From NCBI RefSeq assembly GCF_037975245.1, contig NC_092570.1, positions 12,749,001-12,813,000 on the forward strand: DNA of 64,000 nucleotides, read 5' to 3'. Positions 2,759 through 32,900 of this stretch are shown one piece after another. This stretch comes from Apostichopus japonicus. Lineage: Eukaryota > Echinodermata > Holothuroidea > Aspidochirotida > Stichopodidae. Numbering within the stretch: position 1 is the stretch's first letter; the number at the start of each line of letters is the position of its first letter. The position numbers were made by a program, and so were the translations under genes. Under the pieces are notes generated by a model, which was not told the origin of the DNA, did no database searches, and saw nothing but the letters and a program-made list of their open reading frames with translations.

Positions 2759-2779
2759 CCCGACGTCAAAGTTTCCAGG

Positions 2780-11325: not shown

Positions 11326-12303
11326 GTAACAGCTCTCTAACACCTCCCGGATCAGATTTTTCCCCAGTTTTTCAGCACTGGGTAGTGTTGCACCGTCTTT
11401 TAAAATTGATCACGCCTGGTGATACTACAGCTATATGTGAGACTAACAGCGCATCATAACATTTAGCTGTAGCTCGCGGTACATTTCCTCTCATTAATTT
11501 TTGTTGCCATTATATTAATATCTAATTCGAAACAATACCAAGATTAAAGGTGCCAAAGCACATATATACAGCTCACGGATAAAGGACCTATATGTTAATA
11601 CTTATTTTAACTTCACAAAACCATGCATCTGTCGACTGAACAGTGAATTATAACTTTCATGCTTGAACGAAAACTGAACATCGTTGCATGATAGTGTTTT
11701 AATACAAATCGGAATAAAACATGAACCTCAGTTTCTCTGTTTTGATACAAGATAATAGTTTGTTTTGTATTGCCCGTAATGAAAAGAAAAGTCTCCTTTC
11801 AGAATACCCTATTCATTCTCGAAAAATTAAATCAGTTTTTTGCTAATGATATATATTACATGATGGCGATGGTTTGATCTCGGTCATAATAGTTGGTGTT
11901 ATTTATTTCTCATTTGGTACTTCTTTAAATTGGTTTCTCTTTTGTTAATTATTGAACTTTCAATACGGTAAGTAATATAACATTGAGTCGCAATAGTTTA
12001 TCTTGCTTACGTCATATTCGGTATATTATGACACCATATATGTTTCGGTGTTGTTTCCATCAAGTCGATCCGCCAAAATTATTATAATAACATCGTACTA
12101 AATCCGTTATTATTATTATTTTTTTCATTTTTTTTTTAATTTCTAGGACAAGCCCAATGCAGAAGTTGGAGGCTGAACCGAGGACATTAGCCAACTGACG
12201 CCACTTTTACAAAGAACTGTCCTTGAAACAGCAATAAAAACACGGAATAATTTAACATTTCTTTTTTTTTCACACGCTCTTCGTTATATATATACATGAC
12301 AAA

Positions 12304-13275
12304 ATGTTTGCGCAAAAGACTAAATCGAAATTTTCTGTGGATCTCGTGCGGCAGGATCCCGTCTTTTACGCCCAGTATTTAGGCAAGATGGAAATTGCCT
12401 CTTTTCGAAAACGTGATCTGATTATATCGGCGATCGAAATGTTAGTGAACCGTGGAGTTAAGATTAACTTAGGAAACTTACCGCGTGTGTCGCTAACGTT
12501 TAACCCATTCAATATACATATGGTCGATTCGAGCGATGGAAAACCAAATCACAAATACGCATTCAGTTTTAGGTTGTCTGACATTTCCTATTGCTTGGCT
12601 AACAGAGGAATGAAACGGATCTTCGCATGGGTCACTACCGATCCGGACGGCTTAAAGAAGCCCAAAGTCCACGCGGTACTATGTGGTAACGAGAATGTTG
12701 CTAGAATCATGGCGTTATTGATGACTGAATATTTTAACATCGCCTACAAAGATTATAAGACCGCACAAGGACGCCAAAAGCGCCAGAGAAAGCTCAACCA
12801 TCGTTTGGAAGGGTTGCGTCTTCATCAGTCTCTGGACGAAACTTCTTCTTCTTCGTCACCATCAGCAGGCCCCTCGTCTGCTCACTCAGAAACAAAACCA
12901 GAAACACCAGTCAGAAGACCCTCACAGTTGTTACCCCCTAAAGCAAGGCCCAGACCTCGTCTTCCTATGTGTGACCCTAATGCAGAGGGCCCATCTGGGT
13001 GGTCAGCTGCTACAGCATCTACGCTGGCCCGGTCCAAGTCGACAAGTGCAGCTGATCCCGTGCGTCCTCCGGAAAGAACTTCCAGCTTTTCGCATCAAAT
13101 TACGAAAGAGAGATATTTCAAACAAGCGATGCCTTACGACCCTGACACATCTGACGCAAAAAGCATCAAAGAAGCTTGTAACACTCTGCGGAGGTTAAAG
13201 GTTGATCCTTCAAAATGGGAAACGTCCGACCAATCAGAAGTAGACTCTCTCTTTGACTGGGTTGACGATGAATAG
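12304..13275 (+). CDS. FAM43-like PTB (phosphotyrosine-binding) domain protein
   Basis: A 323-residue cytoplasmic adaptor-type protein. Residues about 10-155 form a PTB/PID fold. The landmarks match what I know of the FAM43A/B family: DPxFYAQYLG (18-27), ISYCLA (94-99), IFAWV (106-110), HAVLC (123-127) and the C-terminal helix with MALLM (136-140), followed by a basic run (KTAQGRQKRQRK). The rest (about 175-300) is Ser/Pro-rich and likely disordered, ending in an acidic FDWVDDE tail. FAM43 function is poorly defined; PTB domains usually bind NPxY-type peptides or phosphoinositides. The coding region is a single exon, as in vertebrate FAM43 genes. The 5' UTR exon appears to begin after the TTTCTAG acceptor at 12146. 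The first in-frame ATG of the domain was chosen. A more distant PTB adaptor is the alternative. Confidence 0.85.
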   Translation: MFAQKTKSKFSVDLVRQDPVFYAQYLGKMEIASFRKRDLIISAIEMLVNRGVKINLGNLPRVSLTFNPFNIHMVDSSDGKPNHKYAFSFRLSDISYCLANRGMKRIFAWVTTDPDGLKKPKVHAVLCGNENVARIMALLMTEYFNIAYKDYKTAQGRQKRQRKLNHRLEGLRLHQSLDETSSSSSPSAGPSSAHSETKPETPVRRPSQLLPPKARPRPRLPMCDPNAEGPSGWSAATASTLARSKSTSAADPVRPPERTSSFSHQITKERYFKQAMPYDPDTSDAKSIKEACNTLRRLKVDPSKWETSDQSEVDSLFDWVDDE

Positions 13276-14078: not shown

Positions 14079-15598
14079 TCATTTCACCTCTTCTCATATA
14101 CAGTAGAAACTATATTTAACGTACTTAAGAAGACTAAAAAAGAATTTGTATCTTCAAGGAAGCTTTCATTGTTTTATCTTAATCATCTTCCTTTCTATTT
14201 AGGACACGAACAATTTAGGATTAAAATTAACATGAAAGTTTATTTCAACATAATGTTCTCTAATTAAGGTTTACATGTCATTTAACAAAACCCAAACTAT
14301 CAGAGAAGTCTAAAGCTTCCAAAAAGTGGGTAGCTGGAGTGAGGGAAGGAGGAAGGGGTTTTCACGCCAGTATTTAACATTTACCGAGAATAAATATATT
14401 GTCCAAAAAACTTCGAGGATACTGAAATAACCAAAAAGTGATCATTTAATGGGTCCTCCAGCCACGTCCAGGACAATGTCATATCGTTCCATGGTCTAGT
14501 TCCACGAAACTTCAAAAGTTGCAGTCTCCGACTACAGTTCATAACGGTACCTTGAGCTGATCACTAACAACATATACACAATGTCGTTCGTACTGATTGT
14601 AGAGGAGGTTTTAATAGCATATTTCTGAAGTTCCAAATCAAGCTCATCGATTTAAAAACCTAAAACTTGTGTTTTCTGAAGAAATGTTCCTTCTCCTGGC
14701 CAAACAAATAAAACATTAGTACTCAAAGCCATATATGTATATCCGACTCTATCAGGACCCGATATGACGACCCACTCTCTGAAACGCTGTGTCGCTTCAT
14801 TGTCGGTCACTATTTTTATATAATTATATAATTCAACGAATCCGTCTGAATAGTCAAGCAACGCCGTGCAATACATCTCTGGTTATTCATAAACATACAC
14901 TTGCCCCTTCCCCTACCCCACACATCCCTACGTTTTGGAATATGATATGTAGTAGGCCTATATATTTGAGGGGAGAATGTGTTTAAACCTTCCATTTTTC
15001 ATTGTTTCAATATATATTTCTATCTTAGATAATTAATACTTTATGTATATAAAATGTAATGGTTAATTGTGCTCAATAATTAAAAGGTGGAATATATAGA
15101 AATCACATGTAGTCTAGATTTTGGCAGCTTATGTACCAGTTCTTCCATATTTAACGTGTCTTAACATTCCTAACGTTGTTGCGGCTGTTGTAGAAACTAA
15201 ATTTGTTATATACTTTGGATGGCGTCTTTGTAGATTTTAAATTATTTCGTACATTTTCTACATTATTTTGATGATCAGTTTTTACAACACCAGAAATCGA
15301 GCATCATACGTCTAGTTGCTCTTCATTTGTGATCGTTTTTTTCTTCTCCTTGTATATGATAACACTATTAACATTTCAAAGTGGTGCAGTGCGGGTGGGG
15401 AAACAATGGACGGGGTACAAACTAACGGTCAGTCAAACAATTATCACGACATTTCCCTCTTCCTCGTTCTTTGCACTCTACCGAGATAGACCCACAAACG
15501 ATTGCTCTGAAACCCTCGAAAAACGACGGACAACTCCATGCTAAACCTCTATTCAGCAACCTACTGCCGACGGTCTCATTTGGGTCACCGTTTCCGGC

Positions 15599-15932
15599 AT
15601 TGAAGACTCGCCCCAAACCGTTTGCCGCGCTCTGAAAAAGTTAACTTTCCGTTGCTTGCGAGTGAAGTTTTCTGCTTGTCGCTACAAAATGCAGACAGTA
15701 ATGAAACGTGATACCTTGTTATCTTTAGCTGGACCTGAGATGTCCATCGCTTTATCGTTTGTAGTACTGCGCTGTATGTACTGACTGTACACTAGTGTCT
15801 AATTATCGAAGGTAGCAAGCTGTGTGCGTATTTTCTGGGATCGATGGTGGTGTCTAACACTTCTGTTACACCTCATTCGAAACTAGGTCAGATTACCGGC
15901 TTTGGATGTTTCTTTTTGCGCGAGTCTTCACA
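15599..15932 (+). repeat. dispersed repeat, copy 2 of a 340-bp direct pair
   Basis: Matches 13729-14078 along its length with scattered substitutions and small indels, for example in the middle TCCATCGC segment. It has the same inverted terminal words (GAAGACTCG / CGAGTCTTC), which hints at a short terminal-inverted-repeat element. Confidence 0.75.
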
Positions 15933-16224
15933 CCCTTTAATAAAGACATATATGTATGGCGACGGGTTGGTTAGTGAGGTAAAGCGTGTATGTATATTTC
16001 GTCATTATACAAGTACCATCGTCAAAGCAGTTTTAAAGGCAGACACTTTCCCATTATATATATGGTACCAAACAGGCATGTGCAGAGGTGTAGAGAGCCA
16101 GGTCAGGCACCGGGACAATTACGTCAACGTGTGACGGGTCCACTATTTGCACTCTTCCTTTTTTGTACTTATTGTTAAGTATTTCTTTGAAAATTAGAAA
16201 TGCTCCATTATTTATGAAATATTT

Positions 16225-16335
16225 TCCATGGCCTATAGTTGGTTAAGTTTTCCGCATATAAAGCGGGAGGCCTGGGTTTCGAATCCCGGTGGAGGCTAGA
16301 AGTTTCTTCACTGTTCTGGACAATTCCAACTCATT
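16225..16335 (+). mobile_element. tRNA-derived SINE (family 1)
   Basis: The 5' part is tRNA-like: TAGTTGGTTAAG (A-box region) and GGTTTCGAATCCCGGTGGAGG (B-box GGTTCGAATCC with one extra base). It is followed by AGAAGTTTCTTCACTGTTCTGGA. The same module occurs on the minus strand at 43800-44010 and 19870-19925. Not a functional tRNA: the cloverleaf is incomplete. Confidence 0.7.
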
Positions 16336-17969
16336 GCAATTTAAAAAATAAACATGTGAAATTGATCCAAATCACAGTTTCATAGATTATTCCGTTGTGT
16401 AAGATATAAAATATTACAGTTGATTCATTTTATGTAAAAAGTGTATTTCGCAATAACGAGTGATGCAATACCAACATCTAGGAACACGTCAACCCATTAA
16501 AAGGGTCTAGTCGTTACGTAGACTAGTTTTAGATTTTTCTGTGACGTCACAGTTCTTAACAGTACTTTTTTCTGAAGTCACTCAATAATCTTATGAAGGG
16601 ACACCGTGAAGAACTTCTGCATGCGTCGTTCCCTTGCATTTTATCCAGCAGTAAATTAAGCATTGGGGAAAGTGCACAGTAAATAACGCAATGTGTGTCG
16701 ATATAGTAAGTCTAAATATTCATATCCTCTTTAAGTTACCCTGAATTTACATTCGGCCGATTGTTTGTTGTAACAGGAACTATTTTTGCGTGCAAGGATG
16801 AGTTCGGCTCAAATGTGCACTTTAGCACTTTAGTCATTATCCTTGTACTGTTCGTTCATTAGTCTCCATATCAATCTTACAATGGAAAAGTTGCATGTGA
16901 TGGCGGAATGATAAGAGGTGCGTTGTTAAGGGGTGAAGCCGGGGGTGGGGGGGGGGTATTTGTATTCATACAGTCACGTCACTCATTAGTTTTTTAGGCT
17001 ATGAATATATGGATTAAGAGCGATAGTTTAAAAAATAACTGATGTTGCTTCCTACATACGATTTCTACTTTATCAACTGTGAAATTCTGAAGTCTACCGA
17101 CACAACCACCCTCCCCCCCCCCCCCTTAAAGTGCGTATTCATACATTCAAAGCGAACAAATAAAAAATATATGAGATATCACGCTTCAAATAAAGACACC
17201 AGTATTCATTCTTCATCTTACTAGAATCATATATTTCTGTTTATTGGCGAAAATATGATCACATTACGACATCTTAAAAAAGAAATATTTCTTGACAGGC
17301 AATTAAGACCCATGTATCATCGCTGCTGCAAATTTAAAAGATATGATGGAGTGAAACTTGATAACAGATTACCTTAGAGTGACTTAAGATGAAATTGAAA
17401 TAATGCAATACCTAGGAACAGAGAACATTCACTGATCCAGAACGTATGTGGTGTATCCCCCCCCCCCCCCCCCCCAACACACACACTCACACACACATAC
17501 AAGTACAGTTACTAACACATTATTAGAAAATGTTTTCACATACACTATGTCATTACGGTTTATATATGTATATTGTTTGGTTGTTAATTAAATTGATTTA
17601 AGATTTGAAACTGTAAAATGGCGGATGTTCAGACTATATATGCTATTCAAGTCAATACTACACACAGCTGTTCCATGTGACTTAACCATTATTAAATAGA
17701 GTCAGGTGTTACAATTTGGCATACATGCCTGTACTACAGTCTCCGGTTTTGTTGGACTTCAAAAGAAAATTATTTGATGACGTAACTGATGATACGGGAA
17801 CATGCCATTTTCCAGTTTTACTAAAGTTTGCTCTTTTTCATTTCATAATATCCTTAATCATTTAAATCCCTGGATATGTAACCATATATTGCCATATCTA
17901 AATGTATTAGCGTATAGACTTTGTATTGAAGAATATACTTCGTTAAATATCTTAAGAAACCTTTATAGG

Positions 17970-18790
17970 AGCGGTATGAAGGGAAAGGAGGAAAGAGACA
18001 ATATTTTATATATCACTTCCCTACTTTACCTTCTTACCACACCCCTATATAGCCCCATACCCCCACCCCCCCCCCGGAGTGGGAGCGGTATGAAGGAAAA
18101 GGAGGAAAGGGACGATATTTTATATATCACTTCCCTCCTTTACCTTCATACCACACCCCTATATAGCCCCATTACCCCATCCCCCCCCCCTTCCGGAGTG
18201 GGAGTGGTATGAAGAGAAAGGAGGAAAGGGACAATATTTTATATATCACTTCCCTCCTTTACCTTCATACCACACCCCTATATAGTCCCATTACCCCATC
18301 CCTCCCCCCCCCCTTCCGGAGTGGGAGCGGTATGAAGGGAAGGAGGAAAGAGACGATATTTTATATATCACTTCCCTCCTTTACCTTCATACCACACCCC
18401 TATATAGCCCCATTACCCCATCCCCTCCCCCTCCCGGAGTGGGAGCAGTATGAAGGGATAGGAGGAAAGAGACGATATTTTATGTATCACTTCCCTCCTT
18501 TACCTTCATTCCACACCCCTATATAGCCCCATTTCCATCATCCCCTCCCCCTCCCGGAGTGGGAGCAGTATGAAGGGATAGGAGGAAAGAGACGATAGTT
18601 TATGTATCACTTCCCTCCTTTACCTTCATACCACACCCCTATATAGCCCCATTACCCCCATCCCCTCCCCCTCCCGGAGTGGGAGCAGTATGAAGGGAAA
18701 GGAGGAAAGAGACGATATTTTATGTATCACTTCCCTCCTTTACCTACATACCACACCCCTATATAGCCCCATACCTCCATCCCCTCCTCT
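17970..18790 (+). repeat. tandem array of seven fold-back units, 114-123 bp each
   Basis: Units begin near 17971, 18085, 18204, 18327, 18445, 18565 and 18685. In each, GGTATGAAGG(G/A)AAAGGAGGAAAG is followed about 10-20 bases later by its imperfect reverse complement, CTTCCCTCCTTTACCTTCATACC, so every unit can form a roughly 30-bp hairpin. The spacer has CCCCTATATAGCCCC and a C-run. Repetitive open frames on the plus strand are by-products of the array. It lies just beyond the predicted 3' end of the minus-strand gene ending at 19320. Confidence 0.85.
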
Positions 18791-19009
18791 TTTCACTTTC
18801 TGCAACCATACAAGCTAATGATTATGTACAACTTAATGGAAATTTGAATGGAAAAAAAATAGAAAAAAAATACTATACATGGAAATTTTGAAAGGAATGA
18901 AACTCATAGAACGAGGATGGAAGTCGATGGTTAGTTTCGATGACAGAAATGGATAGATTGTACTGGACAGAAGGAAAATGTGTTATTGTTAACAACGAAA
19001 AAAGAATTC

Positions 19010-19015
19010 TTTATT
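19010..19015 (-). terminator. candidate poly(A) signal of the RING/B-box/UBL gene
   Basis: AATAAA on the minus strand, about 305 bases after the stop codon at 19320. This is the nearest canonical hexamer I found downstream. Confidence 0.4.
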
Positions 19016-19319
19016 GCAGGGATGCAATTCACTGCCATTGGTATCTTCCTCATTTTTTTGATTTATGATATTTTTGCTTTTGATTTAAATCCGAACATTA
19101 TACTGAAATACACCCCGCAATGATTAAAAAAACGTTGAAGACTCGCCAAAATGTAGTGTTTTAATATAGTGAGCCTCAATTATTGAGTTCATGCTCCGAA
19201 AAACAAACACCATAAGAGTAATTAAGCACGAACGTTTGAAAGACTTCACACTGGCAAGACGTTCAACTAAGATGGAGTTATAAAACCAGTTATTGTGCAC
19301 TCCCTGTATCAACGAATTA

Positions 19320-19934
19320 CTAACACCCATAATCGTCTTCACCACCACGCAGTCTCAAAACCAATTGAAGGGTGCAGTTTTTCTCGACGCCGTAATCTGA
19401 TAGTTTCCCTTCACCGAGCTGACGTCCTCTGCAAATGAGTCGCATCTCGCTTACGGGTACACCAGTTCTCTCACATACGATTTTTTTAAGGTTGTCCACA
19501 CTGTCGTCGCTACCAGCAACCCTTATCGTGAGAGTCTTTCCGTCCATCGTCTTAACGAAAATCTGCAATTCCTGAGAAGTATAGAACATGTAAGAAACAT
19601 CAGTTGGTTGAAGAGATAGCAGACACTCACACCAAATCGAACATGATTTACAAATTTGTTATAAATGGAAGAGAGCAAAGACATTTATGACTAGGACGGG
19701 ATTGGAACCGGTAACTAGTGATGTACCCACTGAGCTTGCTGGTGGCTCCAGTCAGAAGCCACATGTGTATCTAAAATACAGTGCCACGAGGGATCACGCC
19801 CCAGTTACAACGCAGAAGCGGCCCGAGGGAAGGAATATCAAGAGATATTGAACAATTTATGAGTTGGAAAATCAAGAACAGTGAAGAAACTTCCAGCCTC
19901 CACCGGGATTCGAACCCGGGCCTATATATATATA

Positions 19935-20001
<67 letters not shown>

Positions 20002-21637
20002 AGATGTAGATATATGGATGGATGGATGGATGGATGGATGGATGGATGGATGGATGGATGGATGGATGGATGGATGGATGGATGGATGGATGGATGGATG
20101 GATGGATGGATGGATGGATGGATGGATGGATGGATGGATGGATGGATGGATGGATGGATGGATGGATGGATGGATGGATGGATGGATGGATGGATGGATG
20201 GATGGATGGATGGATGGATGGATGGATGGATGGATGGATGGATGGATGGATGGATGGATGGATGGATGGATGGATGGATGGATGGATGGATGGATGGATG
20301 GATGGATGGATGGATGGATGGATGGATGAATGGATGGATGGATGGATGGATGGATGGATGGATGGATGGATGGATGGATGGATAGATAGATAGATAGATA
20401 GATAGATGGATACAAAGATAAAGGTATAGATATCCTATAGATATAGACTGTTTCAGTGATTGTGCAAACATGGATGTGTGGGAGTGATAAGATAACAATG
20501 ACCAGGGTTCACTGCTATTAAGTAGTGTGAGGTCTTGGCCTTCAAAGAAGTTTGCAGTTTTAATACTATATGGTATGTTGCATATAAGCATTAATATAAT
20601 ATGGATTTGCTTATTAGCAGCTAATTAATTTCTCAATGCAGGGAATTTCCAACATGCGGAAGATATTTGCTTATATAAAACGTGTGATTTTACACCAGTA
20701 CTTCCTCCATGCATTTTCAGCACAATCATGAAGTACCATTTCCCTTCTAGTCTACCCCACCAAGTGTCCTTTATGATTAAAATGAATCGTGAGCATAGAT
20801 GGGTACCCTGTCCACCCACGGCATCCCTTGTTGCTTATAAGTATCCTGTTTCTTTGAAGATAATATTTTACATCCTGTCTTCTTATTCTCTGAATGAGAC
20901 AGCATTCTGTTTCTTCTATTCTACCACCGTAAACCCTACCTCTGCGCACAATCATTATCCACCCCCCCCCCCCCCATCTCTCTGGTACCATAACTAATAT
21001 ACACGCATGCATAGTAACTCACCTTAGTTTCTCGTTCGCTTAGATCAACAATCATATGACTAAGGAGCCTCTTCTTCTTTGAGTGATCTTCCATACAGGA
21101 TTTACAGATAGGGTTGTTGCAATCTTTACAGAACGCCACAGCAGGTGCACCTCCTTCCGAGCATTCTCCGCACTCTTCTTCATGAGTATCGCGTATACTC
21201 AAGCTTTTCATCTGTATTTTATCCTCCATATTTTGGGCGGTGAAATCTGTATTAAGCTTCTCCACGTCGTTGCCAGGGACGTTGGTAGTACGTCTGCATA
21301 GCCCACACGTAATTGCTCCATTGCCTGCCTTCCCTGCCTTTAAGCAAGTCTTGCAGAAACTGTGTCCACAGTTTAATAATTTCTCTTTCGGATTTTCTTT
21401 GCAAATTGCGCAGGTGAGATCTTCTTCAACATCACTTACTTTGAGAACTTTGATGGTGTTATCAATCGACGCCATTGCTAAATCTCTTACAGTTGCAGGA
21501 ATGTGAACGTTTGTACGACGAAGAAAGACAGATAATGATGAATCGACCTCCTCGTCCTGTAGAGACTGTAGTGCAAGGTTGGCTTTGCAGCCAAGGTATT
21601 TCCCGAAAATGACGTATCTTCTAAATACGTGCTTCAT
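19320..21637 (-). CDS. RING + B-box + C-terminal ubiquitin-like protein (two exons)
   Basis: Predicted E3 ubiquitin ligase of TRIM type with a fused ubiquitin-like (UBL) domain. Exon 1 is 21637-21023 and ends AAG at a GTGAGT donor. Exon 2 is 19571-19320 after a TTCTCAG acceptor. Both junctions are phase 0, giving 288 residues. RING C3HC4: Cys76, 79, 90, His92, Cys95, 98, 111, 114. B-box: Cys156, 159, 170, 173, 178, 181, His185, His194. UBL 207-282 starts LQIFVKT and ends LRLRGG, with six more residues (EDDYGC). Lys6, 11, 29 and 63 equivalents remain; the Lys48 equivalent is Arg. An in-frame TAA directly precedes ATG 21637, but the ATG at 21475 (residue 55) has the better context (GCAATGG), so the protein may be 234 residues. 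No coiled coil was found in the 1.45-kb intron, so this is not a full tripartite TRIM. Exon 2 has Leu where ubiquitin has Met1, so it needs an upstream exon. The join is inferred. Confidence 0.7.
19686..19925 (-). mobile_element. tRNA-derived SINE-like composite in the UBL-gene intron
   Basis: Minus strand 19925-19870 carries the family-1 module (GGTTCGAATCCCGGTGGAGG, then GAAGTTTCTTCACTGTTC). A second tRNA-like module lies at about 19750-19690, with AGCTCAGTGGGTA (A box) and GGTTCCAATCCCG (B box). The two modules may be one dimeric SINE or two insertions. Confidence 0.6.
19921..20411 (+). repeat. (TA)n, (GATATA)n and (TGGA)n microsatellite in an intron
   Basis: A (TA)n run (19922-19982) passes into GATATA units and then about 92 copies of TGGA (20013-20381) with a single visible interruption near 20329 (GATGAATGG), ending in GATA units. 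It is open in several frames on both strands but has no coding meaning. It lies within the intron of the RING/B-box/UBL gene. Confidence 0.95.
20470..20790 (+). repeat. duplicated flank of the RING exon, copy 1
   Basis: Diverged duplicate of 22030-22270. Shared landmarks include ATGGCCAGGGCTTAATTGC-like and TAGTATGTTGC segments, CTTCATGCATTTTCA, and TCCTTTATGATTAAAATGAATC versus TCCTCTATGATTAACATGAATC. The two copies bracket the RING exon in direct orientation. Confidence 0.5.
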
Positions 21638-22029
21638 TTATTGCACAATAAAGCCTGCAAACGCGGTGGAATTTCGCAATAAATTTCCGACATAAACATT
21701 AATTACGCAATTCAGGGGATTTCCAACCTTGCGGAAGAGATTTGCTGCAGTAAACATGTATGAGGTACATACGCATATACTGTACAAGGTTTCGGAATAT
21801 ATCCATTGATATGAAGGCTGTTAAAGTAAACATAAAAGAGGGGGGGGGAACCGGTGGGGTGGGGTGGGTGGGTGGGGTTGGGTTAAGTCAACCATCGTTT
21901 GACTCCATTATAGAAGGTCAGACGTGTATGATCATTAAACACATGCAGGTACATTACGTATGTATATGAACATAGTAGTAGATCGTTCCGGTATGTTTCT
22001 TTTGATTTCCACATATAACTTTATATATA

Positions 22030-22270
22030 CTAACAGTGACAACTTACCAATGGCCAGGGCTTAATTGCTGTAAAGTCGTGTCAGAAGGACTTGGTTCTTG
22101 ATTCAGGAGTGTGAACTTTCAACTATGTAGTATGTTGCTCATTAGCTTATATAGAAGCGTGTACAAAGTTGAATACTTTCTTCATGCATTTTCACCACAT
22201 CAAGATAAACCAGCTCCCTTTCAGACTTTAGTGTGTCTTACCAACTGTCCTCTATGATTAACATGAATCC
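22030..22270 (+). repeat. duplicated flank of the RING exon, copy 2
   Basis: Counterpart of 20470-20790, interrupted on its downstream side by the hAT-like element at 22288. A short segment beyond that element (about 22775-22830) again resembles about 21990-22030, suggesting further tandem duplication. Confidence 0.45.
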
Positions 22271-22287
22271 ATTCATGACGGAGGAGC

Positions 22288-22762
22288 CAGGGGCGTAGCG
22301 AGCGGGGTGTGTGGGGGTGTCACCCCCCCACCCCCCCCCAATAATTTGGTCGCTGTCGGCAAATTTTGGGTCTGTCGGCAAAAGGAGAAAAGGTGAAGAG
22401 AGCGGAAGTGGAAAAAAGAAGGAAAGCTGAATAGAGAAAAGGAGAACGGGAGCTTCTTTATCGGTTATTTCGATTTCCAGGTATTCGGTTATTTCGATTA
22501 CCGGTATGCAATTTTTCTTCGTTATCCAATTAATTCTTCTTCTGCCGAGTGCCATAAAAATAATATCGAAATGGAAATTCTACGGTGCCCAATTTGACTT
22601 AAAATATGCACCAGATTGCATTTAAGGACGTTTCAAAACTAAAAATTTGCCAAAGGGGAGGGGGTGTCCCCTTCCCCCATTTCAGTCACTACTTCCAGAT
22701 CCGTCGGCAAATCAATTCTCCACACCCCCCCCCCCCAACAACAAAACTTCGCTTCGCCCCTG
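22288..22762. mobile_element. short hAT-like element, 475 bp, with target duplications
   Basis: Left end CAGGGGCGTAGCGA and right end (reverse complement) CAGGGGCGAAGCGA match at 13 of 14 positions. Flanks are GGAGGAGC (22280-22287) and GGAGGAAC (22763-22770), an 8-bp duplication with one mismatch, as expected for hAT elements. No transposase; non-autonomous. Confidence 0.75.
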
Positions 22763-22770
22763 GGAGGAAC

Positions 22771-24034
22771 AATAGGGAATGTTTCGTTGCTTTTGATGTT
22801 CACGTATAACTCTATGGTAGTTTAAGTTATACTACTGTAATGCCATGTTATATGTGTTACATTGTCGAAGCATCTGACATGTCTAGGAAGTTCCACTTGT
22901 AATGCGTTATGTGTTATAGTGTGGAGGAAGGCCTTTACAGTCCAAGTTCTACGAGTGTGCCGCTGTTCGTATTGTGACGAGCCAATTAAAGCACCATGCT
23001 GAGTTCAAAATTTCCCCATCTCAAAGATTGTCATAACCGATGGTTAAAAGTTTTGGAATTGCTGTTACTTTTAAAAGAGTGCAGGTGGCGTTTACAATTT
23101 CGAATCGTGGCTAACGAGTCATGGATCTTTTTTGACAAAAACGAAAAATCTCTAACATATCGTACAGTTGGTCAAGTATGAGCTTTGATCTGCTGAAATG
23201 CTATGGAAGGCAGCCAGCTATACTTTGAAGGAGCTAGTTTACGTTGTTTGTTTACTACAATGGTGGAGAAGCCGGGAGAAACAGAAGGCACGTACCCTCA
23301 CCCCAAAGATTGGTAAAAACGTCCATTTTCAATATACATAAGAAGTTACCCTTTTCTTACTGAAACTAATACCCTTTTTCCAATTAAATTCTTCTCTTTC
23401 TGTTTATGTAACTTAGTAGCCTTATTGTTGAAATATTAAAACAAAATGCACCTAAAATGTTTCCTTATGTTGGGAAATTAAAATAATATGATTAAAATAT
23501 GACCCGCCCCTCTTTTTCTTAAAGAAAATTCAAATACTGGAAACTTCTCGCACAAAGGGTCCATGGTGGTTGACTGTATGGAAAGAACGTACATATATAG
23601 CAATGATTCTACTTTCTATGTAGGTAAATACGCATAGCCGTGTGTACGCCAAGAATTACAGTGGAATGTTTTTCAATCGAATGACACCAAGTGCTTATTT
23701 CCGTCTTCAGATCATTACAATAATCGCAGTTCCATCCGGTTCCTTATATGAAAATTAGGTTACATCAGATGCATTCTCTTCATATCTCTCATAACGTTAA
23801 AGGGTTCTTAAAAGGTTCAATTTTCATGTAATATTGTCAGAGCAAAACAACATAACCAATACTATTTTTGTGCTCAAAGTTTTTTCCCTCGTAGATGGAA
23901 GACTTATGCCACACAACCAGCTATATAATTGCATATGCAAGGTTGTCATAAGAAATCATCGTTTACGGCAATTTAAAGTAGAAGAAAAACCGAGACATCA
24001 TCATAGCTCTATGTCATGATGCGCTATTAATAGA
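22771..24034. other. noncoding interval
   Basis: No supported gene. A 61-residue frame at 22996-23181 contains NESWIFFDKNEKS, faintly like the catalytic-Asp region of mariner transposases, but the Asp is replaced and no other motif is present, so I do not call it. Confidence 0.35.
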
Positions 24035-24357
24035 GATACTTGTGATATAATAATAATGTTCGATTTATATAGCGCTTTATACCAGCGATAGGTCTCAAAG
24101 CGCTTTACAGACGTTATATTACCCCTGGTCGATGATAACCTGTCCCAGAGACAATCCCTCCAGTCGGCAGCAGTTATATACTGCGCCCAATGACAAGTTA
24201 CCTCACAGGTACCCATTTAACCCCTGGGGTGGAGAGAGGCAAGTGAGATAAAGCATCTTGTTCAAGGACACAACGTCATGAACTATAGGCAGGGATCGAA
24301 CCAGCAATCCTTGGATCACGAGTCCGACGCCTTAGCCACTTGGCCCCCACGCTCTCA
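24035..24357 (-). mobile_element. tRNA-derived SINE (family 2) with TAATAATAA tail
   Basis: On the minus strand the head reads GCCAAGTGGCTAAGGCGTC (A-box region) and GCTGGTTCGATCCCTGCC (B box). The body contains AAGCGCTTTGAGACC, and the element ends in TATATAAATCG followed by an ATTATTATTA tail near 24040. This is typical tRNA-SINE architecture in marine invertebrates. No target duplication was defined. Confidence 0.75.
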
Positions 24358-25511
24358 CATAATGTAAGTTCCCCAAACAGATATTAAACATATACTTAGT
24401 CTTATTTCATTTTTAATGTTTCTCCATATGACAGCAGACCATGACATCATCCATCCACATCATGATGCTTGCAATTTATTTTTACTAATCAATATCTCCT
24501 AATATATTAGAGATGAACTTTGCAACTGTAGAATCTGAAGCTCCAACAAGACCTTACTGGCAGGCTATCACTGTGATCACACTAGTTATTTTTTGCCATG
24601 TCAGTAAACATTGAACTTCGATATAGGTTCACCACCGCAAGACCAGGGCCAAATATGTAATCTGATCGCCTTTTGAGCTATTCATTTTTACTTACTATAA
24701 GAATAATTTGTGAAATATCTTTATCCTATACTTTCAATGTCCCTCCATAACCCCTATACACACAATTGACCCTGGTCAACTACACTACTTTACAATACAT
24801 AATGTAACTAACATGATGAACGATGTGCTATCGTTTGTATCATCGGCACATATAAACATCTGGACCGATTACGTCGATTGGGATACGCACCCCCCCCCCC
24901 AACGGACAAACAATACAAAATATACCAACCACAGGGTCATGTGACTTATTGCCCAGTTATCCTACTCGTTGAGTGTGGAGAATATTCACGACGCATGTTA
25001 TGTATATAGCGCGTATAGGTACATTTGTCAAGGTTTACCGCACTTTTTTCAATTCCGAAGTTGCTATTTTCTTTTAAACAATCAACCTGTAAATAGAACG
25101 CATGTATAGCATATCAGGACTTTATACACAGTACATAGACATACCCATCAGACGACAGGATTCGCTGTTCCTTTGCAACACCAGTCGTCTCAGTGCCCGT
25201 ATGTGAATGCGCAACAAGACTGTGTTTAACATGGTGCCAGTGACAGCAATACGCTATCTATAAAACTGACTGTAAATACTCGAATAGTAGCTGGCGTCCA
25301 TGTATTAAGCCCTTTCTGAGACACAGAAAGTACATCTCAACTTCAGTCTCATGTAAACCTAAGCAATTGCTCTAAAATTTACCGAAAAAATGCTCGTTAT
25401 TAATTGGGGTTGTGTTCTCTACGAAATTCTTATCACTTCGAAATGACTTAAATGCACAAAATTAATTTTGATATGTTGCAGACCGTTAGACACCATTGCT
25501 ATCAGTCCAGT

Positions 25512-25542
25512 CATGGAGCTATAAACAGTTTATAGCTCCATG
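25512..25542. repeat. perfect 14-bp hairpin
   Basis: CATGGAGCTATAAA (25512-25525) and TTTATAGCTCCATG (25529-25542) are exact inverses around a 3-base loop, flanked by GTCCAG on both sides. Confidence 0.9.
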
Positions 25543-25874
25543 GTCCAGTGTGCATTCTATGCCACTTTTAATTGATGAGAAATGACCCTGTAAGGAGCTA
25601 AGGTTAATTAATTCAATTGGCTGGCCTACTTAGTCCAACCAGGAAGCTGCTACCAGGCTAAGTAGCAGCCCCCCTGGTCCAACACACACTCAGCCAATTA
25701 GATCAGTTCCTCAGATGCAACGCAAACCTTTATGGGAAAACATAATACTTTTATCGCCTCAAATGACATGTTTACACTATCAAGGACAAATTGTGTTCAA
25801 TGTTCTCCAATGTGTTCTGTTGTTAAAATGAAGTTAAGGGAATATATTTTGGATGATAGTAGTAAGTTGAGTCT

Positions 25875-26045
25875 CGTCTATCCGACATGCTCAGTGATTA
25901 ACCTCCGCCACGTATCACGATCTTGCGCAAGGTTTATTGCTTCCTCGAAATTGTTAATATTAACGTCTTTAAATTGCGACTTTAGGCCTTCCTACTGGTT
26001 TAGCAGTATGTCTCGTGCTTCTCTTGAAGCAACCTTTGCTGGATG
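25875..26045 (-). pseudogene. LINE reverse-transcriptase C-terminal relic
   Basis: Minus-strand translation contains NLAQDRDTWRRLI, the AxDRxxWR signature common at the C-terminus of LINE polyproteins. An in-frame stop lies upstream and no RT catalytic motif remains. The opposite-strand 104-residue open frame (25732-26046) overlapping it is not taken as a gene. Confidence 0.5.
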
Positions 26046-26619
26046 ATGAGTTATATTAATAATAAAACAAAACAATGGATCAACATTAACGTTTAGACCG
26101 CTGCACTGTGGAGTCGATTTCATCATCAATTTATCCTTAAAGGATCATTCCAGACATTTAGCATTATCTAAAGGTGAATAAACGGAAAAGATGTAAAAAC
26201 GATACCAACACTAAAATCTTTGTTTTTCCTGGACTATGACATATCAATCTGGTAGTACCGGAAGCACATCACGTGACCCTCCGTGCATGTTTTTTTTTCC
26301 TATGGTAGCAAGATTTTCAGATATATGTATATTTCGATGTAAATGAAGAGCACATGAAATACAAAATAAATGGCGCATGTACGCCAAACGCCATGGTCAA
26401 CCAGGAGCACGGAAGATGGACTCTAGATCAGTGATCGGAACTTATATTATGCCTTGGTGTATTCCGAACGACAACTTTCTGTATTTCAATGTTCATCAAC
26501 GACTTAAAAACAAGCATCCTTCATCAACAGTACATTTAAGTTTTCAACATAAGGGCACCCTTTGCAAACAACTTAGGGGCACTTTTTATTTAAAAAACTG
26601 CAACCTTCTAAACTTTGTC

Positions 26620-26656
26620 TTGAAGCTGCTAAAAGAGGTACTGGGTTTTTGGTATG
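26620..26656 (+). pseudogene. LINE relic, part upstream of the hAT insertion
   Basis: The frame reading VFGMIK up to 26664 continues after the inserted element with RNFSFL, matching the usual (G)MIKRNF-type segment near the C-terminus of many LINE reverse transcriptases. Start of the relic is unclear. Confidence 0.5.
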
Positions 26657-27264
26657 ATCAAGAGCAGTGGCGTAGCTAGGATTTTTTGAGTGGGGGGGCC
26701 ATGGGGGGGCTGTTCTTTCTTGTGGGGGGGCCGGGGGTTACTATCTAAGCGGAGCGCCACCTTGGTTGGCGCGGAGCGTACAGAGAAAATTTGAGATTTC
26801 AGCACCCCCCAGATCGCAGGAGATGGCACCTGTGAGGCAAAATAGCAACCAAAAAGATGTGCAACTTTGGTGACAGAAATGCAAAAAAATTTTTTTCTCT
26901 TTCATGCTGACTGGCCTTGCCAACTCAGCCAGACTTTTAACTTGAGGGAAGTTGGCATCATTTGTCGTTTCAAGGTGTCAAGGCCTTTCTCCCAACTCAA
27001 ACCCCTGTGGGCTACCGGTAGGTTTGCAGGATATGCCCACATGTGGACTTAAATAGCATTAGAGGAAGGGGATGGAAGACTAACACGCATCGATGTTTCG
27101 GTAATGGTCCACATTGGTGGCTCGGTGCTAGTTAGGCCATTTATTGGGTTTCTTGAGGCAGCTGTCATCAGAATCTGGGTTTTGTGCCAATCGATGACCG
27201 ATAACATGTATTGGTATGTAAATTTCTTCTTCATATATCTAGCAACACTCTAAAAACAAGTGAG

Positions 27265-27415
27265 TGGATTTCATTCCATTGGAGTGATCACTCGGCGCAC
27301 TTCAAATTAAGAGTGAAATTTAACTCTATTGGAGTTAACCCTCACTCCTAATATGAGTGAATATAACTCTATTAGGAGTTAAGATTTACTCCAATGGAGT
27401 GGAAATTAACTCTTA
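27265..27415. repeat. cluster of ACTC/GAGT palindromes
   Basis: Consecutive short inverted repeats include GGAGTGATCACTC, AACTCTATTGGAGTT, CACTCCTAATATGAGTG, TAACTCTATTAGGAGTTA and ACTCCAATGGAGT. They lie inside the hAT-like element at 26665. Confidence 0.75.
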
Positions 27416-27749
27416 TACCGGAATGTGCTCAGTGATCAGTGTCTGACTGGTCCAGCCGCGCCTGAACGTAAGACTATCTAAGCGGAGCGCCATCATCGGT
27501 TGGCGCGGAGCGTACAAGAAAATTTTTGGCTTTACAAACCCCCCAGATGGCCGGAAACGGCACTTCCCGAGTATTCTAAGCTGCATGTACCTAGCCTGAA
27601 AATATGGATCTCATGTCTGCAATTTCTCAATTGATGAGAAAAAAACAATCTATGAAATATGGTATTACATATCAGATGAGTTGAGATGATACAAAAATCA
27701 TAATGCCTTTAGCCCCCATTCCCTCCCGTTCCGTCACCACTGTTTGATG

Positions 27750-28131
27750 CAGGGCCGGATCCAGGATTCTGGAAGGGTGAGGGGTTTGCTCTTGAAAAAT
27801 TCGTTAGCGCATCCTAGCAGCCTACCGCTCTGTAACCTCACCGTCCAAAAAAATTCGAACACCACCTCAATTTTGAAACTTTTCGGTCTGAAAATTGAGA
27901 TTGTTAGGCATTTTTGGCACGAGTAGCACGCGTGCACACTATTCATTTGACAGAAAAGACACACCTGGCTGACTTGTAAGGATAACCGCTTTTCTGACGT
28001 CCTACATGTTTAAAATTGGCGTTTAATTTAATTTTTTCTCTCTTTTTTTCTCTCTCTTTTTTTTTTCTCTTTTTTTTTGGCCAAGAGCAGGGGGGGTCCG
28101 GACCCCCTGGACCCCCCTGGATCCGCGCCTG
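27750..28131. mobile_element. possible nested short hAT-like element
   Basis: Left CAGGGCCGGATCCAGG and right (reverse complement) CAGGCGCGGATCCAGG form matching termini 382 bp apart. The flanking octamers (GTTTGATG, CATATATT) do not match, so this may be two unrelated ends rather than one element. Confidence 0.4.
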
Positions 28132-28587
28132 CATATATTTATTTGACTCGAGGCAATATATGAATACCTGATACCTCGGCTCAGTACAAACGGAGCCAAT
28201 CTTTTGATAGATTGTTGCGCTAGGTGGAAGCACTGAACATATTTTCAGCAGATATCGATATCGCGCAGCACAACAAGGTTCGTGGTGTATGGTCGCAATC
28301 GTCGCATCGACCATTGCCATGCCATGCTGTGTGACCATTCTCATGATTACTACAGATATTGTATTATTCTTATTCTGCCAGATGCAGACGAGAAAATTGT
28401 GTAACTCTATTTCCCAAATTATTGAACAAAAAATATTAGTGAATCGCACTTTTTTTTATTTTTTTTAAATTTTTTTAAATTTTTTTTTACGCCGTTCCCA
28501 GTGGGGGGGCCAGTGGGGGGGCCAGCCGATTTCATGGGGGGGCCTCGGCCCCCCAGGCCCCCCCGTAGCTACGCCACTGATCAAGAG

Positions 28588-29171
28588 GAACTTCAGTTTT
28601 CTGATAGAGGACATCGTAGTTAGGCTTTATAAGCAGTTGGTTAGGCTTCATCTGGAGTATGCAGGCTTGGAACCCATATTTTGCTAAGGATAAGAAAGTA
28701 CTTGAAAAGGTCCAGAGGGGGGCTACTAGGATGATTAGTTCCTTAAAGAGTGTTCCTTATATAATAGGCGGTTACAACTGTTGAATCTCACCGCACTGGA
28801 GCTTAGGAGGTTACGTGGGGACTTGATCAAGGTTTTCAAGATTGTGTATGATTTCGACAATTTATCCTTTACCGAAGTTTTCATGTTTGCTAACAGTAGT
28901 TGTACCAGAGGTTATCCAAAAGTCACATAGTAGGATTAATATTCGGCATAACTTTTTTTCTATTAGGGTTGTAAATGAGTGGAATGATTTGCCTGAGAAA
29001 GTTGTACTTGCTAGTAGTGTCAATGGGTTTAAGAATGCTTTGGACAGGCACTTTAAACATTGTTATCGGGTCTGAGTGTTTGTGTCTTCAGTTTTTTCTC
29101 TCTCTATAGGGTCCTTGATGGGGACTTAAGTGTCCCTCCTGATCCTTTTTTTCTACTAAACTAAACTAAAA
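28588..29171 (+). pseudogene. LINE reverse-transcriptase C-terminal relic with (ACTAA)n tail
   Basis: Broken frames keep the classic C-terminal signatures: LYKQLVRLHLEYA near 28625, KVQRGATRMI near 28710, and VVNEWNDLP with SSVNGFKNALDRHF at about 28965-29060. Stops and frameshifts separate them. The 3' end is a short ACTAAACTAAACTAAA repeat, a typical LINE tail. CR1/jockey-like by eye. Confidence 0.8.
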
Positions 29172-29309
29172 CGATATTTTTGTTCTAATTCATGAAATGC
29201 GGATGCGGGTTATATAAACGGGAATGGGAGGGGGAGTGGCACGTGCGCCTCCTCCTGCTCCCTGGTGGTTAAGAAGAAGCTTGTATTCAAATGAGCAGCT
29301 TTCTTATGT

Positions 29310-29639
29310 TTACAACAGCTTCGCCGAATAGTTCTCTTCCTCATTTGCATGATACTGTTTGCATGATACTGAAAACTTCAGGCTGTGGAAGATGGATGCT
29401 CTCTGAGACGACTTGTATGGTGAATCAACCCGCATTTCGATAACGTCGGAAACAAGTCCTCTGATATGACGTAACAGATTGACTCCTCCAATTTGATTCA
29501 TTCGCGAATCTAATTTCGATTTCCTTTTTTTTTCTAGATGAGTATCATTTAATCTACTGAAAATTAAAATCATACATAAATCAAAAAATATAAATGTAGC
29601 TAAAAGATGAATACATAGCACTGTTCTTATGTGTTGCAT
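29310..29639 (-). CDS. possible small hypothetical protein, divergent to ACADVL
   Basis: A 109-residue frame with its ATG 330 bp from the ACADVL start and pointing away from it. The N-terminal 30 residues are hydrophobic (signal- or anchor-like); the remainder is hydrophilic with NLLRHIRGLVSDVIEM. I recognise no family. A 14-bp repeat (CAGTATCATGCAAA, twice) sits near its end. It could equally be a chance frame, or one exon of a split gene. Confidence 0.2.
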   Translation of the reverse strand: MQHIRTVLCIHLLATFIFFDLCMILIFSRLNDTHLEKKRKSKLDSRMNQIGGVNLLRHIRGLVSDVIEMRVDSPYKSSQRASIFHSLKFSVSCKQYHANEEENYSAKLL

Positions 29640-29969
29640 TGAGCTTATTTAAAAAATACTTTCTTATAAGTCGACACCATGTTAAAAGAGGTAGGTGAAA
29701 AGATTACTCACATTTTCCGCTGTTCTGTGACGTTATGCAAAACGAGTGTTTTCGTTTGTATGACATAACGTTTAGAGTGTATAGTAAACACGTACTATTT
29801 AATATATGAGCACAGCGTAGATAAGGCCTAGCCTACTTGTCAATATCACTTTCTCACTTGTCTCTGCCTTTCTTTTCATCAAGAGTAACGAACGTCGAAC
29901 ATCAGCAATAGAAACGATCATAAGAAAAAATAAGTATCTTGATCCCGTAGTATTTTCTGTTCCAGAACC

Positions 29970-32900
29970 ATGTTTTCCAGTAAACTGATCAGCGCAGCTC
30001 AATCTCAAGTCGGACAACATGCACGACGTTCCGTCATAAGGTATGTCTACGGTATCGTATACGAATGTTATGTAAGTCTACAGTAATCGTTCAATAATAA
30101 TAATAATATTGAATTGAATCATTTGGCTACTTGGTTTCAAAATAATACCTTAGATAAGACTGTTGCAGCCTAGTTTACTAAATTCGTGGATTATTAATGG
30201 TAGCATTAACAGCACAGACATTCGCCAAGCAGTGGAATACAAATCGTAGCCACCGATTCATGAACTTAAAATTATAGGGCTAAGCTAGGCCTGAGTGGAC
30301 TAGCTGGCTTGCTGATTCACTGGGCATTTTTCCCCTGGCAGTCTTCTGGCTGTGAAACTAAAATCAGTAGATATAGTTTATGAAACTAGATGGTTAGTAT
30401 CTTTTTGTAGCCCTGGCATTACCCAATGCTTTTTTAGAGGTCAAAATGTCACCAAGCAGTGGAATACAAATCGTAGCCACTGATTCATGAACGTTAGGCC
30501 GATGGACCCATATGCCTAGGTGGACTAGCCTACGATAACCTAGGCATACAATAGCCTACATGCTGTATGCCCGATCAATGACAAGGACACTCAGTCTAAT
30601 CATGTGTTATCAGTCTAAAATGTTCAAGCTGGAGTCTCCTTGTGAACTACAGTAAGGCAGCAAGGTTTCCTGCTCTTTGCAAAAATTGTTTTCTTCAATA
30701 CTGTACTGTACTACTACTAGTAAAGTAGTAAGAATAAATGAATCATATACCTGTATAACCAAAATTGCAAGCCTAAGTAGAACAGAAAGTATTGGAGCAA
30801 TTGAATTAACTGGCTTTCAATCAATTGATAACACACACTTAACTATTGACTGGCCCTGTGTAGGAACATATGTATGTGAGAAAAGAATTCCAACGCAAAT
30901 TTTTGCTGATCTTCCAAGACGATCACTTTATTCCTGGACAGCCAGATTTTCCATGGAGCAAATATAGAATACCCCACCAAGCAAAAACAGACCCTCACAT
31001 CGAGTTGCTAATGTCAAGTTATCCAAAATCTTTTGGAAACATTTCCAAGGCCAAAGGTTGGTCAGGTAGTGGCTACATCGGATACTTCGTCAAACACTCT
31101 TGCAGTATTATAAAGACCCCAGTAGTTTCTTCCACCAGTTCAATTTTGAAAATATTTCCAAGTCCAAAAGTCTCCCTGGGAGTGGCTACACCAGCTCAGT
31201 CAGTTATGTCAAGAAGAAGTTGTTAATCTTCATGTACTGTGTGGGCATTGTGTGTACATGTGACAATGTAGTCGGCTACACCATGGATTTACATGTTGGC
31301 AGGGTATTCTATGGTAGCACCTTTCCCATGCCCATCCAAGCTTCCAAGAAGTCATTATGGTTTGCGATGATTTTATTAGCGAATAGATCATCAAGCTGTC
31401 TGAAAATATAACTGTACTCTGTACTCACTGCACACATAACTTTAGCCACAGCTTTGATCAATGTTAACAAATTTTAGGTTAATTTGTACTCTGTAAAGAC
31501 TGATCACAATCCTTAAAGATGGGACATTTTGTCATATTTTCAACACAAAATTTGTATTGATAGCCATCAGTAGCTTTTGCCATATCTGACGTACATACAA
31601 CAGTAATTTGTTAGAGGTTTTAACCGCAGTGGTCACAAGCTTTGGAAAATGTTGATAGGCTATTAGGCACCCAATAGGGCAGAACTGTTAACTTTTGTTT
31701 CTAGAAAAAGTGTGACAAAAAGCCCCAAAATTGTTGGCTTATAATAACAGCTCTAGTCGGGTACACTCAGCATGTAGCATTCTCTCTACAGATAGGACTG
31801 TAACAGTGTGCAGCAGTTCATGAAAGTAACTAATAAAGTCTACACTCTACAGTACTAAGATTCAACAATGTTTACAACCAATCGCAGGGGAAGGAGTTTT
31901 GCATGAGACCCAACAAGCACTGCCTGTTCTAAACAGAATTTAAGCAATCATTAAGTGTTGGCTCATCAGTCATGCAGTTGTAAGGTTTGTAAGACCATGG
32001 AGGTCTGTTTTTACCTCCATGGTAAGACTAGGTCACAGCAGTATCGGTTAAGGTGGAAACATCCAGTCGGAGGGGACGCAGCCGGCTTTTCACAAATGTA
32101 CATGTCTCAGCCATCCATATCGACAATATAAATCAGATTAATCCCCTACAACTTGTTTCATGCCTTTGTCAAGGTGCTTTTCACATTTTTAGATTATTAC
32201 GTGAGGCGTAGAGGATTGCTTTGTCACATATTGAAAAGTTATTTTACTGATAGACTATTTGCTTAGTGTATATTGGGTCTTACAGTCGGTACTATGACAG
32301 GTGAAAGGTTGTCCTGTACTGTAAAATGCATTGTCATGTACAGCACAGTACAGTATGTACACTGTCTGTAAGCATCATTAATTTCTGAAACCACTCATGT
32401 TGACATTGCTTCGAGAGTCCAACGATTGGGATTTTGCCAATGATTCACTTATTTCTGTTTGGAATGCACTTTATGTAGATATGATTCATGGTGATAGTTC
32501 TGTACCATACTACAAACTGTGGTTACCTAGTAGCCTACAGAGGAATCAAGGCTTGAGAACTTTGACCAACTGCTTATGCATATATTGTATATGGTTTAGT
32601 GGCACTATTCGTGCTCATTTGCATGCAATTTTGGATGCCTTGCTTCTGTACCTGTGTACAGCGCATTATTTGTTTCGGTAAGGTAATTATAGATAAGTCC
32701 TGCTAACTAGTAACTTGGAAATTTATGTACTTCCAAAAAATGTTGGCAAGATTTTAAATTATCACAGTACTTAAAAACTACAAGTATATATAACAAGAAT
32801 TCTCAGTTGATTGCAAGATATCATACATGTAAATGATGACACTAGAATTATTAACTAAAAATAAATCATCACTTTCTTACTGTTGATAACCATCACATGA

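Follow-up and report, generated by a model that had tools for sequence, protein, structure and literature searches.

A predicted two-exon gene of Apostichopus japonicus joins a TRIM-like RING/B-box part to a diverged C-terminal ubiquitin and is a candidate pre-primed K63 ligase

Introduction

Ubiquitin-like domains (UBLs) in RING ligases usually act as docking domains, and in the RBR ligases parkin and HOIL-1/RBCK1 they are N-terminal and have no free diglycine. Ubiquitin precursors and ISG15-like proteins present LRLRGG followed by a short extension. The gene described here, which lies in the window (the whole 64-kb stretch of A. japonicus DNA that was analysed), differs from the precursors and ISG15-like proteins in that its UBL sits behind a RING/B-box part and has Leu as codon 1. 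In parkin and HOIL-1/RBCK1, as here, a single polypeptide combines a RING-type ligase with a ubiquitin-like domain (UBLs are mentioned in PMC3503706).

An N-terminal RING combined with a C-terminal ubiquitin-like domain is also found in the PRC1 RING proteins RING1B and BMI1, whose RAWUL domain shares <20% identity with ubiquitin and has neither the diglycine nor the three most common acceptor lysines (PMC2447854). Since the PRC1 RAWUL is already known, a C-terminal UBL in a RING protein is not new in itself; the first-pass annotation, which held that UBLs in known RING ligases are N-terminal and without a free diglycine, is contradicted by RAWUL on the first point and borne out by it on the second (PMC2447854). 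The window UBL, in contrast to RAWUL, matches ubiquitin and keeps the diglycine.

TRIM21 and TRIM5 are self-anchored K63 ligases: TRIM21 holds Ube2N~Ub via E12, E13 and D21, TRIM5 does so via the equivalent residues, and such acidic anchors are common among TRIMs in general (PMC6776665). Ube2N/Ube2V2 requires a priming ubiquitin whose K63 attacks, and the TRIM21 structure was obtained with an engineered Ub-TRIM21 RING fusion, carrying G75/76A in the crystallised form, with acceptor contacts at S57, Q62 and K63 (PMC7900206). Chain elongation starts in trans and needs RING clustering; Fc gave no stimulation of full-length Ub-TRIM21, and the activity of a single-RING Ub-RING-PRYSPRY construct lacking B-box and coiled coil was only weak (PMC7900206). 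The passage from priming to a self-anchored K63 chain has, in TRIMs, so far been studied with an artificial ubiquitin-RING fusion.

The window gene resembles these systems in its RING (natural TRIMs also have the B-box), its acidic Ube2N anchors and its fused K63-bearing ubiquitin (PMC7900206, PMC6776665). Unlike the engineered fusion, it is natural and retains the diglycine; it further differs in carrying its ubiquitin, of about half identity, C-terminally after the B-box, and in having neither coiled coil nor SPRY. It shares RING, linker and B-box1 with TRIM2/TRIM56-type TRIMs and with the genome's TRIM paralogues, and differs from them in being without B-box2 and the later parts, in an extra intron and in having a UBL instead. 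No UBL class was found in the part consulted of Marin's TRIM classification (PMC3503706), and none of the literature titles or abstract openings searched names a C-terminal ubiquitin in a TRIM or B-box protein.

Gene structure

The gene consists of two exons on the minus strand, whose phase-0 join gives 288 aa plus stop when read from the ATG at 21637. Its elements are:

21637..21023, minus strand: exon 1 in its first-pass extent, 615 nt, a multiple of 3, ending ACT AAG/GTGAGT; open frame 21637-20936
21476..21637, minus strand: in-frame upstream extension of exon 1, 54 aa, with the weak start context TGTGCAATAAATGAAG; probably 5' UTR
21023..21475, minus strand: coding part of exon 1 from the likely Met (MASIDNT...), 151 aa, ending ERETK in phase 0
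21017..21022, minus strand: splice donor GTGAGT with AAG before it, a perfect MAG/GTRAGT
19572..21022, minus strand: intron, 1,451 bp
19572..19586, minus strand: splice acceptor with pyrimidine tract, TTCTATACTTCTCAG, rated by an ad hoc pyrimidine-tract score
19571..19320, minus strand: exon 2, 252 nt, a multiple of 3, starting CTTCTCAG/GAA TTG
19320..19322, minus strand: stop codon, from the translation
19010..19165, minus strand: poly(A) signals ATTAAA at 19165 and AATAAA at 19015, 3' of exon 2

The exon 1 donor is the sole 9/9 match to MAG/GTRAGT in the window (one on the minus strand, none on the plus strand). By the ad hoc score, the exon 2 acceptor is unmatched among the 52 AGs from the donor through this acceptor, itself included, and its score is reached by 15 of the 3,404 minus-strand AGs in the window, again itself included. 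The predicted two-exon RING/B-box/UBL gene model is well supported: the phase-0 joining of a RING/B-box exon with a diverged ubiquitin exon, proposed in the first-pass annotation, holds given that both exon lengths are multiples of 3, the Pfam domains are found and the splice sites are strong.

The join to 288 residues is possible as first proposed; the size of the protein, conversely, is probably smaller. Specifically, the ATG at 21475 (GCAATGG) is a likelier initiator than that at 21637 (TAAATGA), because it has the better context and leaves a short leader as in the relatives, and its MASIDNT start resembles those chosen for three relatives (MAQEQT, MAGKVV and MEEELV); the protein would then measure 151 + 83 = 234 aa, not 288. 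In agreement with the first-pass annotation, exon 2 is probably not a free ubiquitin gene, since its codon 1 is Leu and a strong acceptor lies 3 nt before it, notwithstanding an in-frame ATG 18 nt upstream of the exon (19589).

The intron contains pieces of dispersed repeats as well as a (CATC)n array (20014-20411); near 19850-19935 it also has a short repeat, which is found two more times in the window. Its stretch 20788-20483 resembles 22269-22035 and 21763-21698, in the flank upstream of exon 1, at 69-79%, and between intron 20483-20788 and flank 21698-22269 the shared pieces are reordered (A, C, B in the former and A, B, C in the latter). A genome search with the upstream flank (best 40 scored of 554 candidates) returned, besides the flank itself, short stretches matching query 202-305 or 4-59, and dispersal over the genome was demonstrated for piece B alone (query 217-305). 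A duplicated promoter in the intron is weakened as an idea, since part of the resemblance is a dispersed repeat. Just downstream of the gene, at 17968-18787, there is a tandem array of 120/241-bp units.

The RING and B-box part

Exon 1 codes for the features that the protein shares with the TRIM family, namely an N-terminal RING and one B-box after it:

21296..21412, minus strand: RING, C3HC4, with 8/8 zinc ligands and Arg after the last Cys; E18 and D19 lie just before the RING and E27 inside it
21056..21172, minus strand: B-box, at the first B-box position of relatives, with 8/8 zinc ligands

In the joined protein the best RING model is zf-RING_UBOX (Pfam, E 2.2e-7), and the B-box is matched by the ANCHR-like BBOX model (3e-7) and by zf-B_box at 23.8 bits, just under the 24.1 cut-off; NCBIfam gave 0 families. 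In the PDB, exon 1 is matched best by chains of TRIM2, TRIM56, TRIM21 and TRIM5 (47 distinct sequences, E <= 0.01). The RING shows peculiarities of spacing, with one residue fewer between ligand pairs and a Gly after the seventh ligand where three aligned relatives have Pro. The AF2 model of exon 1 alone (pLDDT 43.2) was left out of the argument.

In the joined model the ubiquitin follows within about 12 residues after B-box1, and the predicted protein is TRIM-like, not a full TRIM, because the coiled coil is missing. A search with 26 TRIM queries for remnants of the parts that follow B-box1 in TRIMs gave no convincing match: two hits fell in 15000-21022 (E 0.40 and 0.94) and a third fell in 21640-30000 (E 0.23).

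In an ungapped HMMER alignment to the TRIM21 chain 5olm, the residues E18, D19 and E27 are paired with E, E and D, which we take to be TRIM21 residues 12, 13 and 21, counting from the first RING Cys as C16; the Arg after the last RING Cys presumably occupies the place of the TRIM21 linchpin R55. Among the window gene and 29 paralogue loci, drawn from the 150 matches scored, the single anchor positions are acidic in 14/30, 3/30 and 23/30 TRIM RINGs, and all three are acidic only in the window gene. With a looser RING pattern (rows L048 and L051 out of register) the counts become 16, 5 and 21 of 30, and again the window gene alone has all three.

The ubiquitin-like domain

Exon 2 codes for almost nothing but ubiquitin and a short tail:

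19341..19568, minus strand: ubiquitin-like domain, 76 aa, ending LRLRGG; 39 identities to ubiquitin in 77 alignment columns
19323..19340, minus strand: C-terminal extension EDDYGC after the diglycine, from the translation

The domain combines a ubiquitin-family sequence with a predicted beta-grasp fold. Specifically, Pfam finds ubiquitin in the joined protein over all 72 positions (E 9.6e-17) and no match to RAWUL at E <= 0.1, while the single-sequence AF2 model of exon 2 (pLDDT 69.5) gives 1,534 PDB matches at E <= 10, with TM to query of 0.72-0.81 in the 50 listed; 49 of these 50 have ubiquitin or Ub in the title, and 8oyp names a USP11 substrate mimetic. The first-pass description of a C-terminal UBL with LRLRGG and six further residues agrees with the translation, which reads EDDYGC, and its statement that the Lys48 position is Arg with Lys63 kept is seen in the alignment to ubiquitin: K63 is retained, K48 is replaced (K48R), and K29 and K33 are lost. 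The domain also keeps S57, R42, Q49, R72 and L71-G76, while Q40 is changed to Glu, and R42, Q49 and R72 are presumably the residues facing E1. The binding patch retains I44, G47 and V70, and the surface is altered by L8M, F45C, Q62E, E64N and H68Q. The first codon of the domain is Leu in place of Met1.

Selection on the ubiquitin exon

Compared with the genome's canonical polyubiquitin, exon 2 is identical at 33-37% of third positions (7 repeats compared), has pS of 0.74-0.80 and pN of 0.33 (3 repeats computed), and is thus saturated at synonymous sites, while 39 of 75 aligned residues are identical to ubiquitin. Because some of the synonymous change may sit on the polyubiquitin branch, a simulation of neutral decay to the amino-acid identity of exon 2 was added (4,000 runs). 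Runs free of stops numbered 726/4,000, and the conservativeness of the changed residues, with an observed mean BLOSUM62 of +0.53 versus a neutral -0.57, was reached in 0/4,000; the conservation of the last 13 residues was equalled in 256/4,000, which alone is weak evidence. Judged from the sequences, the ubiquitin domain has evolved under protein-level selection, in view of the synonymous saturation, the retained residues and changes more conservative than in any neutral run. In a comparison of 49 distinct UBL units from 11 loci of the A. japonicus genome, LRLRGG is kept in 1 of the 29 units having <=50/76 ubiquitin residues, and exon 2 also keeps it.

Copy number, relatives and origin

The genome searched comprises 35 sequences with 671,581,487 bases in total. 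Exon 2 as query finds a single full match there, the next best having 52% identity (43 matches, a lower bound), and the exon 1 query likewise finds one, with the next best at 40% among 150 scored of 316 candidates; PF00240 gives at least 97 matches, one of them on the window's contig. No second UBL match beside a RING/B-box match, and hence no second copy of the ubiquitin-tailed gene, occurs among the matches listed in the exon 1, exon 2 and PF00240 searches. A search of viral contigs gave 6 pattern matches and 0 relatives.

About 110 of the 150 scored exon 1 matches lie in open frames >= 600 aa. In the eight relatives whose frames were examined, five (L032, L034, L036, L040 and L042) continue in a single frame through B-box2 and beyond, L033 and L043 do likewise in shorter frames, and L041 shifts frame directly behind B-box1 and takes up B-box2 in the following one. 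Because the relatives continue past B-box1 through B-box2, the donor after B-box1 is probably derived in the ubiquitin-tailed gene. The TRIM repertoire of this genome is very large, with clusters on many contigs (e.g. C1, C9, C10 and C17; L032-L060), and many TRIMs occupy one uninterrupted frame of about 700-800 aa (among the 150 matches scored of 316 candidates).

As to the source of exon 2, its best pairwise score is with canonical ubiquitin. Human UBC and UBB have 5'-UTR introns. In the polyubiquitin gene of this genome, TTTTCTTGCAG stands seven bases ahead of the first ATG and resembles the acceptor of such an intron; in exon 2 the acceptor is three bases ahead of the Leu that took the place of Met1. 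A simple origin would thus be that a ubiquitin coding exon was captured along with the acceptor of its own 5'-UTR intron, given that polyubiquitin, too, shows an acceptor-like site only a few bases ahead of codon 1. RPS27A is a less likely source, since in this genome introns interrupt its ubiquitin. A tree of the 49 UBL units plus exon 2 places the latter on a long branch that joins a C8 unit (85/84) with a long-branch warning, and no origin was taken from it.

The genome holds other unusual UBL loci. At C16:17132280-17221466 (L011, L013-L017, L019-L028, L030) giant, diverged ORFs of poly-ubiquitin-like type are clustered, and one of them, of 2,123 aa, contains a long series of UBL repeats; among the distinct units examined, one keeps LRLRGG and three have LRLKGG, because of which many of the unit junctions look non-cleavable. 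Two neighbouring loci at C8:33745018-33754156 (L061 and L062) have strongly diverged multi-UBL ORFs of 596, 334 and 203 aa, with one unit in each keeping LRLRGG or QKLRGG, and C11:18416967-18417407 (L012, L018) has a two-UBL ORF of 176 aa with an LRLPGGS end and an ISG15-like layout.

A possible pre-primed K63 ligase

We tentatively read this two-exon gene, of which no second copy was found, as coding for a TRIM-like RING E3 that ends after B-box1 and bears a diverged ubiquitin as a built-in priming ubiquitin for K63 chains, a reading to which we give somewhat less than even weight. The protein looks like a pre-primed K63 ligase because the acidic anchors are there and K63 and S57 are kept, while K29, K33 and K48 are lost. 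In such a mechanism, the RING would recruit Ube2N~Ub with Ube2V through the acidic anchors, the fused ubiquitin would serve as the acceptor, and the K63 chain would be extended on the fused domain, normally that of a neighbouring molecule, so that the Ube2W-type N-terminal monoubiquitination used by TRIM21 would be skipped; a possible second output would be the removal of EDDYGC by a deubiquitinase, exposing the diglycine. The broader proposal of a natural pre-primed RING ligase, with its acceptor ubiquitin fused, K48 removed and K63 kept, that would build self-anchored K63 chains without a separate priming E2, and whose LRLRGG would further allow processing or conjugation, is held as a doubtful possibility.

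Several points temper the pre-primed reading. The acidic anchors support it without singling it out, because they are common in TRIMs generally; the ubiquitin follows the B-box rather than being N-terminal, and the coiled coil and B-box2 are absent, a difficulty for an elongation published to start in trans with clustered RINGs. The Fc and Ub-RING-PRYSPRY results given above also count against it, as do the Gly after the seventh RING ligand and the shorter spacing between ligand pairs. Moreover, Ube2V binding may be weak because of L8M, F45C, Q62E, E64N and H68Q. Of the two earlier suggestions, an intrinsic mimic of a ubiquitinated TRIM is the better fit and a conjugatable modifier the poorer one, in view of the three acidic anchors and of the need of Ube2N/Ube2V2 for a K63 priming ubiquitin, but it applies to a protein that is only TRIM-like, with no coiled coil. 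If true, a natural fusion with a selected ubiquitin, in a TRIM-rich animal, would show hard-wiring of the priming step to be possible, would offer a ready-made test of which lysine and geometry the chain needs, and would add a TRIM-like ligase with a C-terminal, diglycine-bearing ubiquitin.

Alternative explanations

Two readings take the protein as a whole and give its ubiquitin another task. A C-terminal UBL that recruits ubiquitin-binding-domain partners or the proteasome, as in parkin/HOIL-1 or RAWUL, would fit the docking role usual among RING ligases, the C-terminal position of RAWUL in PRC1 and the retention of I44, G47 and V70; it would leave the diglycine as a leftover, against which speak the changes at L8, F45 and H68 and an LRLRGG kept intact with about half of the domain changed, as in just 1/29 diverged UBL units, and we regard it as rather unlikely. 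If instead a deubiquitinase removed EDDYGC and E1 activated the diglycine, the whole RING/B-box protein could be attached to targets. The conserved R42, Q49 and L71-G76 and the short precursor-like extension, comparable to the GG-F end of the last polyubiquitin repeat in this genome, favour such a conjugatable ligase, but Q40 is now Glu, patch residues are changed and we know of no precedent for a whole RING protein conjugated through its own C-terminus, which makes it distinctly unlikely.

The remaining two readings dissolve the join itself. Exon 1 might be what is left of a truncated TRIM, with exon 2 forming an independent UBL gene that starts from the ATG at 19589 (MFYTSQEL...), given that this ATG is in frame, that the frame is open for 112 aa and that the roughly 300 bp of intron resembling the exon 1 upstream flank could hold a second promoter. 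This start, however, has a poor context and overlaps the high-scoring acceptor, which no other AG from donor to exon 2 equals in score, and part of the resemblance is a genome-dispersed repeat, so that two separate genes are quite improbable. That the locus is without function, with a TRIM pseudogene truncated at its 3' end lying next to an old pseudogene of ubiquitin, is suggested by the divergent RING spacing and the intron repeats and is highly improbable against the selection signature on exon 2, the intact zinc ligands, the perfect donor and the absence of convincing TRIM remnants with the 26 TRIM queries. The pre-primed K63 ligase is the reading that we prefer, with the reservations given above.

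Other features of the window

A stretch at 24281-24353 on the minus strand matches the Rfam tRNA model with 29.1 bits against a threshold of 29, while ARAGORN finds no tRNA in the window; it is possibly a tRNA-derived repeat. Ten other ORFs of the window were checked with Pfam, and eight had no family at E <= 0.01. The two with hits are long frames on the plus strand, one at 2735-4321 for an Ig-domain protein in which a hydrophobic stretch resembles a membrane segment, and one at 12256-13272 for a PTB (PID_2) protein, which presumably resembles FAM43.
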